DNA from: an uncultured Pseudomonadota bacterium
GTDB taxonomy: Bacteria; Pseudomonadota; Alphaproteobacteria; UBA9219
Direction of reading: 5' to 3'
Assembly: GCA_903919315.1 (NCBI GenBank)
Contig: CAIXHP010000004.1
Span: 1-44,435 of the forward strand
Length of the DNA: 44,435 nucleotides
Below, one piece after another: positions 16,201-20,346 of the stretch (position 1 is the stretch's first letter; every line of letters begins with the position of its first letter). A model generated the notes under the pieces. It ran no database searches and was not told the DNA's origin. It saw only the letters and a list, made by a program, of their open reading frames with translations. The translations under genes were made by a program, and so were the position numbers.

Positions 16201-17256
16201 TTAGTTCTCCGTGTCGTCGTCGGGTGTCGGGAAGAGTCCCTGCAAACCCTTTGGCACGGTCAGGCCGAGGTGGCGGTAGCCGGGTTCGGTGAGCATGCGG
16301 CCCCTGGGCGTGCGTTGGAGGAGGCCTTGTTGGAGGAGGTAGGGTTCGATCACTTCTTCCAGCACGTCGCGCTGTTCCGACAAGGCCGCCGCCAAGGTCT
16401 CTACGCCCACCGGGCCGCCGCCGTAATTTTCGGCGATGAGGGCGAGGTAGCGGCGATCCATCGCGTCGAAGCCGAGGCGGTCGACTTCCAGTTTGTTCAA
16501 AGCGCTGTCGGCGGCTGTCGCGTCAATCTCGCGGCACTGCGCGACGGCGGCAAAGTCGCGCACGCGGCGCAGCAAGCGTCCTGCGACGCGCGGCGTGCCA
16601 CGCGCCCGGCGGGCGATTTCCGCCGCGCCGTCGGGGGTCAGGGGCGTGTCGAGCTTTGATGCCGCGCGGCTGATGATGCGCTGCAATTCGTCGGGGGTGT
16701 AGAACTGCAGGCGAAGCGGAATGCCGAAACGCTCCCGCAGCGGGCGGGTGATGAGGCCGCTGCGCGTCGTCGCGCCGATAAGGGTAAAGGGCGGAAGGTC
16801 GATCCGCACCGACCGCGCCGCCGGGCCTTCGCCGATGATGAGGTCGAGTTGGAAGTCCTCCATCGCGGGGTAGAGGATTTCTTCCACCGCCGGGGCCAGA
16901 CGATGAATTTCGTCGATGAACAGCACGTCATGCGGCTGGAGGTTGGTGAGCAGGGCGGCGAGGTCGCCCGCCCGCGCGATCACCGGGCCGGAGGTCGCGC
17001 GGAAGCCTACCCCCAATTCCCGCGCCACAATCTGCGCCAGCGTGGTTTTGCCGAGGCCGGGCGGGCCGAAAAACAGAACATGGTCAAGCGATTGCTGGCG
17101 TTGCTTCGCCGCCTGAATGAACACGTTCAGGTTGGCGCGCAGGGCGGCTTGTCCGATGAAATCCGCCAACTGCTGCGGCCGCAACGCTACGTCCGGCGCT
17201 TCGCCGGGCAGCGGCGCGGGGGTGACGAGGCGTTCGGGTTGAGGGGCGGGGGTCAT
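16201..17256 (-). CDS. ruvB: Holliday junction branch-migration ATPase RuvB
   Basis: RuvB is the AAA+ hexameric motor of RuvABC. With the start at 17256 ([10 protein letters not shown]) it has 351 residues. Walker A is GPPGLGKTT, Walker B LFIDEIHR, sensor 1 GATTRSG, the arginine finger sits in RPLRERFG, and the winged-helix C-terminus ends [17 protein letters not shown]. The frame is open further upstream but that reading overlaps the dinD-like gene. The ATG is one base after that gene's stop (TGACATG), so the two are translationally coupled and probably share the LexA-type promoter at 18153. Confidence 0.97.
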
Positions 17257-17257
17257 G

Positions 17258-18130
17258 TCAGTCTTTCTTACGCAGTTTCCGCGAACTTGTCGATTGAGCG
17301 GGTGGAAGAAAGTTTTCACGGCTGACAACGCGGCGTCCGGTCTGTTGTTCCAGTTTCTCGCGCGTGTCTCCGGCGATTTTCCCGCCCGCCTGCGCCGCTT
17401 GCCGGTTTGAGGGAAGCCCCTGAGCGTCGCGGGTGCGGGCGATTTCGGTTGTTGATGCCTCGCCTAACATCGTGAAGATCAACTCAAGATCGGTCATGTG
17501 ATCCCGCAAATTCTCGCGGTTCAGCCCTTTGAATTCCTTGTGTTGGGATGGGTTCAGGCCAAAGGTGGCCACCGCTATGTCCGCCGTCAGGATGGCGTAT
17601 TCGGCTTGATTCTTGATGCCGCGCTTGTCCCATTCGCCGGTCAGTTCCTCGCGTACGGCGATGCCGCGCATCCGCTTTTCGATCCAAGCATCGGGGTACC
17701 CTTTGGCACGGTAAAGGGCGCGGGCGCGGCTGGCGGCGCGTTCCGGGTCTTCAATCTCCTGCACCCGCTCAAAGCCGACCTTCGCCAACCATCGTTTAAA
17801 GGGCGCGGCTTTTGGCGAGGGGATGGACTGGACGATGCGGAACAGGGTTTCGGTATCGGCGCAGTCGGTTTCATAGGCTTTGCCATCGGCGGCGGCCAGT
17901 TTCAGTTGTACGATTTTTTCGTACAACTCGGAAAAGCCTTCTTTCTCAGCCAATTGTCGTTTTAAATCCGACCAGTAACGGCGCGGATTCGCGCTTTCTG
18001 ACAGGATGGCGACAACATCGATGACGGAGAAATACCAAGCATCGTTATGGAGAATACGGCGAATTTTATTGTGCCGGAAAACGACCAGATGCTCGGCTTC
18101 CGGCGTTTGGGAGGGGATGGCTTTGGTCAT
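17258..18130 (-). CDS. DinD-like protein with N-terminal BRO domain
   Basis: A 290-residue protein. Residues ~15-115 match the BRO-N/antirepressor domain ([25 protein letters not shown], then [10 protein letters not shown]). The C-terminal half resembles E. coli Din[26 protein letters not shown], an A-T-TEI segment, then [25 protein letters not shown]. DinD is an SOS-induced protein that disassembles or inhibits RecA filaments; BRO domains are common in phage repressor-like proteins. It sits between ruvA and ruvB, has a GTTC-N7-GTTC box 23 bases upstream of its ATG, and ends one base before ruvB. The family call is good; equivalence of function to DinD is inference. Confidence 0.85.
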
Positions 18131-18152
18131 TCGCTTCGCTGCGGCTTGATGG

Positions 18153-18167
18153 GAACAATAGGCGAAC
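18153..18167 (-). promoter_or_regulatory. LexA (SOS) box, alphaproteobacterial type
   Basis: On the minus strand GTTCGCCTATTGTTC fits the alphaproteobacterial LexA consensus GTTC-N7-GTTC exactly. It lies in the 72-base gap between the ruvA stop and the dinD-like start, 23 bases upstream of the ATG, where a repressor would block a promoter. Confidence 0.75.
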
Positions 18168-18202
18168 GTTACGGTTTGGCGGTGCGTGACGCAAGCTGAA
18201 AA

Positions 18203-18820
18203 CTATACGGCGTTATCCTTCCGGCTCAGCCCCGCGAGGCTGGCGCGGAGGAGGGCGTCGAAGTGGGCGGCGGGGCCGATCTTTTGCGCGGCGGCGGACA
18301 CGGCGGCAAAGGCTTCGATGCGGCGGTAGCCGAGGTTGACGAGGGCGGACACCGCGTCGCCGGATACGCCGCCGCTGGCGGATGCTGTGGAGGATGAAGG
18401 GAGCGCGGACGCGCCAAAGACCGCGACTTTGTCCTTTAACTCGGTCACGATTCGCAGCGCCAGCTTTGGCCCCACGCCGTCGGCTTGGGTGAGGGCGGTT
18501 TTGTCTTGGGCGGCGATGGCGTGGGACAGCTGCTCCGGCGACAATGCGCCGAGGAGCGCTTGCGCTACCTTTGCGCCCACGCCTTGCACGGTGGTGAGGA
18601 GGCGAAAGGCATCGCGTTCGGCGGCGTCGATGAAGCCGTAGAGGCTGATCGCGTCCTCGCGCACTTGCGTTTCGATCAACAGCGCGGCGGCTTCGCCCAC
18701 ACCGCCCATCTGCCGCAGCGTCCGCGCCGAAGCCGCGACGACATAGCCCACGCCTTGCACGTCAAGGATCAGGTGGTGTCCGTCGATGCTGTCGATGCGT
18801 CCGGTGAGTTTGCCGATCAT
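18203..18820 (-). CDS. ruvA: Holliday junction DNA-binding protein RuvA
   Basis: RuvA tetramers bind four-way junctions and load RuvB. The 205-residue protein starts MIGKLTGRIDSIDGHHLILDVQGVGY (OB-fold domain I). It has two helix-hairpin-helix motifs in domain II (LLTTVQGVGAKVAQALL and LTQADGVGPKLALRIVTELKDK), an Ala/Ser-rich linker and the C-terminal RuvB-binding domain III (VSALVNLGYRRIEA). It overlaps ruvC by four bases. In most relatives ruvB follows directly; here the dinD-like gene intervenes. Confidence 0.96.
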   Translation of the reverse strand: MIGKLTGRIDSIDGHHLILDVQGVGYVVAASARTLRQMGGVGEAAALLIETQVREDAISLYGFIDAAERDAFRLLTTVQGVGAKVAQALLGALSPEQLSHAIAAQDKTALTQADGVGPKLALRIVTELKDKVAVFGASALPSSSTASASGGVSGDAVSALVNLGYRRIEAFAAVSAAAQKIGPAAHFDALLRASLAGLSRKDNAV

Positions 18821-19335
18821 GCTTTGTCGCCTGCGATGGATAAAAGAGAGTGTCCGCCCGTTCTATGATGCGCATGGCAGACGGCGACCGCAAGAGCGTC
18901 GGCGGCGTCGGCGGCGAGTTTGCCGGAGCCGGGCAGGAGGATGCCGATCATGGCCTGAATCTGCGCTTTGTCGGCGTGGCCATAGCCGGTCACGGTTTGC
19001 TTGACGCGGTTGGCGGCGTATTCGTCGACGCTCAGGCCCGCTTGGGCCGCCGCCAGCATCGCCGCGCCCCGCGCTTGGCCCAGTTTGAGCGCCGAGGCGG
19101 CGTTGCGGTTGACGAAGGTTTCTTCGATGGCGGCTTCCATCGGCCCATGCGCGGCGATAACGGCGGCCAGTCCGTCCGCCAGCGCCTTGAGCCGCGCCGC
19201 CATCGGCAGGTCGGGGTTGGGGTTGATCCGCCCCGCCGCGACAAAGCTCAACCGATTGTCGCGCTGCCCCACCACCCCCCAGCCCGTATGGCGGAGTCCG
19301 GGGTCGATCCCAAGGATGAGGCGAATCGTGGACAT
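18817..19335 (-). CDS. ruvC: Holliday junction resolvase RuvC
   Basis: RuvC cuts Holliday junctions symmetrically. With the start at 19335 (MSTIRLILGIDPG) it has 172 residues, the family length. Catalytic acids correspond to Asp11 (GIDPG), Glu71 (AIEETF), Asp143 and Asp146 (ADAADALAVAVCH). An upstream in-frame start would add 16 residues before the first strand and is not needed. I do not see a LexA-type box upstream of it. Confidence 0.97.
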   Translation of the reverse strand: MSTIRLILGIDPGLRHTGWGVVGQRDNRLSFVAAGRINPNPDLPMAARLKALADGLAAVIAAHGPMEAAIEETFVNRNAASALKLGQARGAAMLAAAQAGLSVDEYAANRVKQTVTGYGHADKAQIQAMIGILLPGSGKLAADAADALAVAVCHAHHRTGGHSLLSIAGDKA

Positions 19336-19578: not shown

Positions 19579-20346
19579 CTATGCCGTTGTAGCGGAACTT
19601 TCTGCAGAGGCGGAAAGCTGTTTTTGCTGCTGAAGTTCTTTTTTTTGCGCAGCAATCGCGTCAAGTTTTTGGATGCGCTTTCTCCGCTCTTCCCGAGCCA
19701 CATACCATTCTACAAACAGCAACTCGGCAAGCTCTATAAGGATTTGAGCTTCGTCAGCATCAACATCAACGATGATGTTGATGTCTTTCTCCATATGAGC
19801 CCCAATATTTCCTATGCCCCGCACATGATCTATTGCCTCCACGGTATCATGCTGAACCCCCAATGGAGCCTTGCATTCGTCCACCCGTTTTCGCAACTCA
19901 TCTATCTCGCCCTTTAATGTTCCCTTCTGAATTTTACAAAAGTCTCTGATTATGCCTTGTATGCACCTCCGAATAAGTGTCGCTGAGGCTTTTGGGCTAA
20001 GGTCACGAATTGCACATGCTTCTTCATAATCTTTGCGCAAAGGTACTGGTATATATTCTGGAAGTGGCTTTGCAAAAGAGGCAGGTAGCAACCGCCAAAT
20101 TTGATGCATGCCTATGTTTTGGATTTGAGAGGTTCCGGGGACGTCTTTGCGACGATAAAGACAAAAACTTAAGCTCATTTTTCTACAATCAGTGTTTGCA
20201 CAGACAAGTGCTTCAACCTGATACGCAGGCAACCCTTCAACCCAGTTTTGAACATACACTTTTTCGTTTACTATTCTATGCCGAGCCTCATCAACAACCT
20301 GAGCGTGTCCGCAGTAGGGGCATTTCCAATTTTCGCCAGTTTTCAT
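19579..20346 (-). CDS. DUF4145-type protein with a four-cysteine zinc motif
   Basis: A 255-residue protein. Cys9, Cys12 (CPYCGH), Cys49 and Cys54 (CANTDC) look like a zinc ribbon. The region ~105-215 (LRKDYEEACAIRDLSPKASATLIRRCIQGIIRDF and VRGIGNIGAHMEKD) matches DUF4145, a helical domain found in restriction-associated and stand-alone proteins. A charged, Gln/Lys-rich coiled coil ends the protein. The gene is clearly A/T-richer than the ruv genes beside it. It lies between ruvC and two tRNA-Thr relics, so it is probably horizontally acquired. A defence role is possible but unproven. Confidence 0.75.
   Translation of the reverse strand: MKTGENWKCPYCGHAQVVDEARHRIVNEKVYVQNWVEGLPAYQVEALVCANTDCRKMSLSFCLYRRKDVPGTSQIQNIGMHQIWRLLPASFAKPLPEYIPVPLRKDYEEACAIRDLSPKASATLIRRCIQGIIRDFCKIQKGTLKGEIDELRKRVDECKAPLGVQHDTVEAIDHVRGIGNIGAHMEKDINIIVDVDADEAQILIELAELLFVEWYVAREERRKRIQKLDAIAAQKKELQQQKQLSASAESSATTA

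Follow-up and report, generated by a model that had tools for sequence, protein, structure and literature searches.

The ruv operon in the window (the whole stretch of 44,435 nucleotides analysed here) is interrupted by a DinD-like gene, which stands between ruvA and ruvB behind an exact GTTC-N7-GTTC motif. Our preferred reading, in which we place a little more belief than doubt, is that a mobile Bro-N/DinD-like gene lodged at the ruvA-ruvB junction, that LexA switches it together with ruvB, and that its product is a DNA binder resembling DdrC. We believe the gene is probably a recent wedge, wired to the SOS response here and putting ruvB under the same switch. If the SOS control is true, a mobile gene has made RuvB respond to damage separately from RuvC and RuvA.

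An interrupted ruv operon

The order on the minus strand is ruvC, ruvA, a 72-bp gap, a DinD-like open reading frame of 290 residues, a single base (17257) and ruvB (Table 1). The three ruv genes each pass curated NCBIfam models and run in order on one strand, with the insert interrupting them. The first-pass annotation had claimed that the inserted gene ends one base before ruvB and is preceded by an exact box. Both are borne out: the coordinates are 17258 against 17256, and 22 bases separate the end of the box from the A of the ATG. Simple scans picked up no terminator-like site between ruvA and dinD or where dinD meets ruvB, which leaves room for a transcript common to dinD and ruvB. The same kind of scan gave one weak terminator-like site inside the DinD-like gene (17506-17485) and no sigma-70-like promoter in the gap. 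Just 5' of ruvC, on the same strand, lies the gene of a DUF4145 protein (19579-20346).

Table 1. Features of the ruv locus in the window
Feature	Position	Strand	Remarks
ruvB	16201..17256	-	TIGR00635, 453 bits; start one base 3' of the dinD stop
dinD-like / PDC-S13 gene	17258..18130	-	290 aa; apparently acquired horizontally; Bro-N, PADLOC, GC, tree
C-terminal helical region, about residues 128-267	17330..17749	-	AlphaFold2 prediction, pLDDT mostly 90-99
Bro-N domain, residues 22-117	17780..18067	-	PF02498, 36.8 bits, cut-off 25.6
ruvA-dinD gap	18131..18202	-	72 bp, GC 55.6%
GTTC-N7-GTTC GTTCGCCTATTGTTC, putative LexA operator of dinD-ruvB	18153..18167	-	exact match
ruvA	18203..18820	-	TIGR00084, 182.8 bits
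ruvC	18817..19335	-	TIGR00228, 148.9 bits; 4-base overlap with ruvA

We took 23 ruvB loci from the window's taxonomic family (L118-L140), and 19 of these have ruvA and ruvB in view, the window's own included. L131, L133, L136 and L140 were left out with ruvA not in reach, and the sole match in G013 is a weak AAA. As the window is alone among the 19, we rejected the idea that alphaproteobacterial ruv operons conserve this insertion. Neither the DinD-like gene nor an exact box at ruv was found in any of the 18 relatives with ruvA and ruvB on one locus. The survey of ruv operons that the first-pass annotation had proposed thus points to a singular event and not to a conserved coupling of DinD to RuvB. 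As a rule ruvB directly follows ruvA in this family, in many cases with an ATGA overlap; at seven other loci the two genes lie about 145-590 bp apart, with repeats or an extra frame in between. By eye, palindromic REP-like sequences stand in the gap at L119, L122, L123, L124 and L135, while the gaps of about 580 bp at L120 and L121 hold an open frame that begins MMKESLG or MMKEVFG; no Pfam match was found for the frame at L120.

There is a precedent in Vibrio. The relevant passages of PMC3323433 describe Vibrio ruvCAB operons disrupted by one or two inserted genes with separate LexA sites, which is the likeness to the ruv locus of the window. They differ in that the same passages leave the inserts unnamed, do not call them DinD-like and apparently have them separating ruvC from ruvAB.

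A mobile family packed into operons

From GC content, patchy presence, differing places and the tree, the gene appears to have arrived horizontally. Its GC is 56.8%, against 67% for ruvC, ruvA and ruvB. Across 84,980 species genomes at least 569 relatives were confirmed; the best 80 of these, 53-67% identical to the window protein, are spread over CPR bacteria, archaea, Bacteroidota, Planctomycetota, Pseudomonadota and others. Relatives occur in 10 of 385 alphaproteobacterial genomes and in 25 of 398 genomes of the phylum. Within the window's own order the gene is present in 5 of 33 genomes, and the other four copies lie at other places than ruv. In a tree of 85 rows the same-order copies L034, L035 and L148 form a clade (100/99) that excludes the window copy, which pairs instead, not firmly (94/78), with a MAG labelled Chlamydia trachomatis. 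L095, L106 and L113 were omitted from the protein alignment (A4) and the tree, and L238 duplicates L047.

The relatives tend to be packed tightly into operons. At 25 of 83 loci the gene lies between two same-strand genes, the upstream one within 100 bp and the downstream one within 60 bp, whereas a mirror control shows this at 3 of 83. At G353 (L241:1444-2328), an alphaproteobacterial genome without a LexA match, the DinD-like gene separates pheS from pheT and, taking the ATG at 1486 as its start, overlaps each of them by 4 bases. Other copies lie between dcd and murA, between fabI and an MFS gene, and between lysC and a nitronate-monooxygenase (NMO) gene.

Genes of CRISPR and restriction systems are also frequent neighbours. 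The Pfam families are led by Cas1 (6) among 67 downstream neighbours and by ResIII (4), RhuM (3) and Cas3-like (3) among 70 upstream ones. By tblastn with cas queries, cas genes lie within the flank at 11 of 80 genomic loci (L052, L053, L061, L062, L065, L077, L081, L088, L090, L092 and L093), L101 being left out of the count for a weak helicase match, and at 0 of 21 IMG/VR loci; they also lie in the flank of 2 of 28 further loci. Gene order was read gene by gene at the CRISPR loci other than L052 and L092. The gene stands between cas6e and cas1e at L053, between cas4 and cas1c at L081 (L093 alike), between cas9 and cas1 at L090, between cas12a and cas4 followed by cas1 at L088, between cas7c and cas4 at L077, and between cas1f and cas3f at L270, with a short extra frame between cas1 and the gene at L269. 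By annotation, an Arcobacter plasmid has the order cas4, gene, cas1b, cas2. The types in which a relative lies beside cas1 or at the boundary of effector and adaptation genes are I-B, I-C, I-E, I-F, II and V-A (L053, L061, L062, L065, L081, L088, L090, L093, L250, L269 and L270). If one gene in 2000 is assumed to be cas1, a rough binomial puts 7 of 80 loci beside cas1 at 2e-14 and 5 of 80 at 7e-10; 5 is the fairer count because L053, L062 and L065 are one clade.

In restriction-modification operons the order hsdM, gene, hsdS was confirmed at L261 and L268. An hsdM-like gene lies 5' of the relative at L265, and hsdR lies 3' of it at L272. The gene before dinD at L055, taken by eye for hsdS, was rejected as such, since Pfam gives it HsdM-type domains. 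The presence of the family at CRISPR adaptation modules of six types, as well as in type I restriction-modification operons, raises the question of whether its members help Cas1 or protect DNA ends.

These neighbourhoods bring up the alternative that survives best, which we think possible while doubting it. The gene would be a stand-alone anti-phage gene that rides host operons for expression, with ruv incidental and the SOS response sensing phage damage. The window protein matches the PADLOC model PDLC04920 with 385.7 bits over residues 12-285, a tool that gives no cut-off, and so belongs with PDC-S13 (PADLOC-DB models PDLC04918-04920). The relatives within CRISPR and restriction-modification operons and the excess of tight co-directional wedges over the mirror control fit this account as well. 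However, PDC entries are candidates only, and relatives also sit in housekeeping operons (between pheS and pheT, dcd and murA, and lysC and NMO). We know of no test of the PDC entries, and PDC-S13 was not found by name in the literature searched. At the window this candidate defence gene lies inside ruv with a putative SOS box.

To us the wider pattern across CRISPR, restriction-modification and ruv is more interesting than the ruv site itself, and it hints at a shared function, speculative as that function is. A broader proposal, which we put forward tentatively and would sooner doubt than accept, is that the PDC-S13 family is a dispersing DdrC-fold binder of DNA ends or single-stranded DNA, repeatedly retained beside genes that deal with branched or broken DNA. 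It would serve as an accessory end or junction factor, including in spacer acquisition, and could be placed under SOS control. No DinD-like gene in ruv or with cas1, and none linked with DdrC, was found in the literature searched, outside which most subscription journals lie.

LexA and the GTTC-N7-GTTC site

The first-pass annotation had named the lack of an encoded LexA as something that would count against its reading. The window genome does encode the LexA equivalog (TIGR00498, 160.5 bits, cut-off 110.95), and a LexA match above the cut-off is present in 22 of 24 genomes of the taxonomic family. GTTC-N7-GTTC lies within 320 bp upstream of lexA at 22 of 22 family loci, a count that leaves out L002 (weak), and of recA at 19 of 21, leaving out L212 and L213 (partial recA) and L214-L217 (weak). 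The consensus of these boxes is about GTTCTAYTTTdGTTC, and almost all are oriented opposite to their gene. The window genome has GTTCTACTTTGGTTC at lexA and GTTCTATTTTTGTTC at recA. The relevant passages of PMC3323433 have alphaproteobacterial LexA binding GTTC-N7-GTTC and place putative sites for the LexA of this class at the alphaproteobacterial ruvCAB promoter. A review (PMC9578287) reports, in its section concerned, that ruvCAB is induced in Caulobacter. Around ruvC in the window no box was found at 0-1 mismatches.

The box in the ruvA-dinD gap is the sole exact match in the window. It is not statistically striking on its own, and we rejected that argument: about 1.53 matches are expected per window by chance, 82 of 100 shuffles have at least one, and with 77 exact matches in the whole genome, where the reversed control pattern has 94, the motif by itself shows no enrichment. 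The spacer is unlike the spacers at lexA and recA. We scored spacers on 45 boxes upstream of family lexA and recA loci, a set that includes the host's own two boxes, and those two score 12.0 (recA) and 10.4 (lexA) within their own training set. The ruv site scores -3.4, twelfth of the 77 genome matches, a value equalled by 9.8% of random spacers. The box of radA in the same genome, 9 bp 5' of the start, scores -4.3, and that of a Y-family polymerase gene, which lies over the start, scores -5.6. Both genes would be expected in an SOS regulon and their boxes are equally loose, which makes the ruv site plausible, though not a strong one. A site with the third-best spacer score in the genome, GTTCTTGTTTTGTTC (G000:C11:7467-7481, L219), stands 232 bp 5' of an open reading frame that by eye resembles a cytosine methyltransferase.

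This evidence is the ground for the next alternative, that the box is chance and the gene a passive passenger on the ruvC promoter with no SOS link. The expected match per window, the missing genome-wide enrichment and the ordinary spacer all favour it, and so does the absence of boxes before members of the protein family elsewhere. Among 82 upstream regions of such members, with six motif types tried, GTTC-N7-GTTC was found at the window alone, and in a sample of the phylum (21 loci, 20 with an upstream region) the alphaproteobacterial type was found in 0 of 20, with one relaxed CTG-N10-CAG match at L260. We rejected on these counts the idea that dinD-like genes are generally SOS-boxed. Against the chance account, the expectation for an exact box in the one 72-bp gap is 0.0019, and a second copy in the same order is boxed as well. 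We judge a chance box improbable, if still worth weighing.

That second copy is in G030, of the same order and another family, where the DinD-like gene lies between lysC and the NMO gene. The extra small frame before the listed open reading frame of the NMO gene exists only on paper, and the reading frames overlap at the stop. An exact box, GTTCATGAAATGTTC, lies 44 bp 5' of the ATG, and the lexA box of the same genome is GTTCTAGTTTAGTTC. No exact box was found before the DinD-like gene in G002, G003 and G009, where LexA is present. One boxed copy among the four other LexA-bearing genomes of the order has a chance of about 0.017, and one among about 11 further alphaproteobacterial copies about 0.05, both calculated with the motif density of the window genome and not that of G030. 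The 11 copies omit L246, a shorter second copy in G175 without a box. A value of 0.0012 for two boxes among 12 regions includes the window, itself chosen for its box, so the figures for the others alone are fairer. In an alphaproteobacterial MAG of the Sphingomonadales (L102), CGAACAAGAGTTCG lies 5' of the DinD-like gene; we take this to be a LexA site of the Gram-positive type, one of the six patterns tried.

On balance we believe SOS control of the DinD-like gene at ruv is likely, because LexA is encoded, its motif stands at lexA and recA in the family, and a relative in G030 is boxed. What tempers this is that the spacer is unlike those at lexA and recA and that chance alone would supply one match per window. 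The shared dinD-ruvB SOS promoter proposed by the first-pass annotation has the encoded LexA, the family motif, the box in G030 and the terminator-free junctions on its side; no promoter-like site was found. We imagine that a mobile PDC-S13 gene entered where ruvA stops and ruvB starts, as its relatives suggest, and broke neither gene. Through an operator in the new gap, LexA would hold an internal promoter silent. Cleavage of LexA after damage would then induce dinD along with the ruvB behind it, adding to read-through from ruvC and ruvA.

A DinD-like protein with a predicted DdrC-like fold

The first-pass annotation called the product a BRO/DinD-type protein, and this holds as far as the Bro-N domain and the PDC-S13 group shared with DinD. 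It does not hold for the DinD equivalog model NF008573 (cut-off 242 bits), which gave no match to the window protein at E 0.001; the relatives L034 and L036 reach 22.4 and 27.8 bits. By these comparisons the window protein does not count as an equivalog of E. coli DinD. The two proteins are 24% identical over 241 positions (E 0.022), and their profile comparison (hhalign) is weak, with 63 columns. The likeness lies in the common group, in the C-terminal part and in a LexA box of its own: E. coli DinD has 58 bits to PDLC04920, in its C-terminal half, and 402 to PDLC04919, and its gene has CTGTATATAAATACAG 61 bp 5' of the ATG. Unlike the window gene, dinD of E. coli is a solitary gene flanked by yicC and yicG. 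Phage Bro-N and KilA-N antirepressors have the Bro-N domain in common with the window protein, with weak structure and PHROG matches, but differ in the C-terminal part. The best PHROG is 15286, of unknown function.

A further alternative is the function the first-pass annotation proposed, a DinD that dismantles RecA filaments and is induced together with RuvB, shifting strand invasion towards branch migration. E. coli DinD is cited as removing RecA filaments in the passage concerned of PMC4849656, and its PADLOC match and LexA box count for this account. Against it are the low identity, the weak profile and the unmatched equivalog, as well as the commonest neighbours of the relatives, which are cas1 and restriction genes. 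As the protein falls outside the equivalogs of E. coli DinD, the proposed function is not supported, and we find it quite improbable. Least probable of all, to the point that we give it hardly any credence, is an error of assembly or binning that placed a foreign gene into ruv: the genome is in 70 contigs and the GC of the gene differs, but a single 44-kb contig spans both junctions, ruvA and ruvB are intact around the insert, and relatives form similar wedges in other operons.

What the predicted structure resembles is DdrC of Deinococcus, and here we return to our preferred reading. An AlphaFold2 model from an alignment of 78 rows has a pLDDT of 89.7 and a pTM of 0.74. In a Foldseek search of the PDB, six Deinococcus DdrC chains are the sole matches at E<=0.001 (best E 7.7e-7), and the likeness of predicted fold runs over nearly the whole window protein (7udi, 8u0g, 7qvb). 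VIA-align 2, in which helical bundles can reach a high Z by chance, gives Z 14.2 with 218 aligned residues and an rmsd of 11.6 for 7udi_B. The N-terminal domain of DdrC alone (8u1j) gives Z 8.4 and rmsd 3.7 over 95 residues, matching the Bro-N part, and among rows other than DdrC a designed helical repeat comes first (Z 6.8, rmsd 5.2, 112 aligned). Both the match of the N-terminal domain and the distance to the following rows argue that the model truly resembles DdrC. Its two parts may be hinged differently, given the high rmsd.

The differences from DdrC are large. Identity in the structural alignment is 13-14%, and phmmer and hmmsearch found no sequence relationship to any PDB chain, DdrC included. 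DdrC is under DdrO/IrrE control and not LexA, according to the part of PMC5436757 that deals with it. The same part describes DdrC of Deinococcus radiodurans as damage-induced, as binding single-stranded more than double-stranded DNA, and as protecting, annealing and circularising DNA. By this likeness the window protein, with its Bro-N winged domain and helical bundle, would most likely bind single-stranded or broken DNA. It may protect or pair ends while the extra RuvB aids branch migration, which could be the benefit of having the two together. DinD, DdrC and the candidate defence gene PDC-S13 would then be three labels tied to one predicted architecture.
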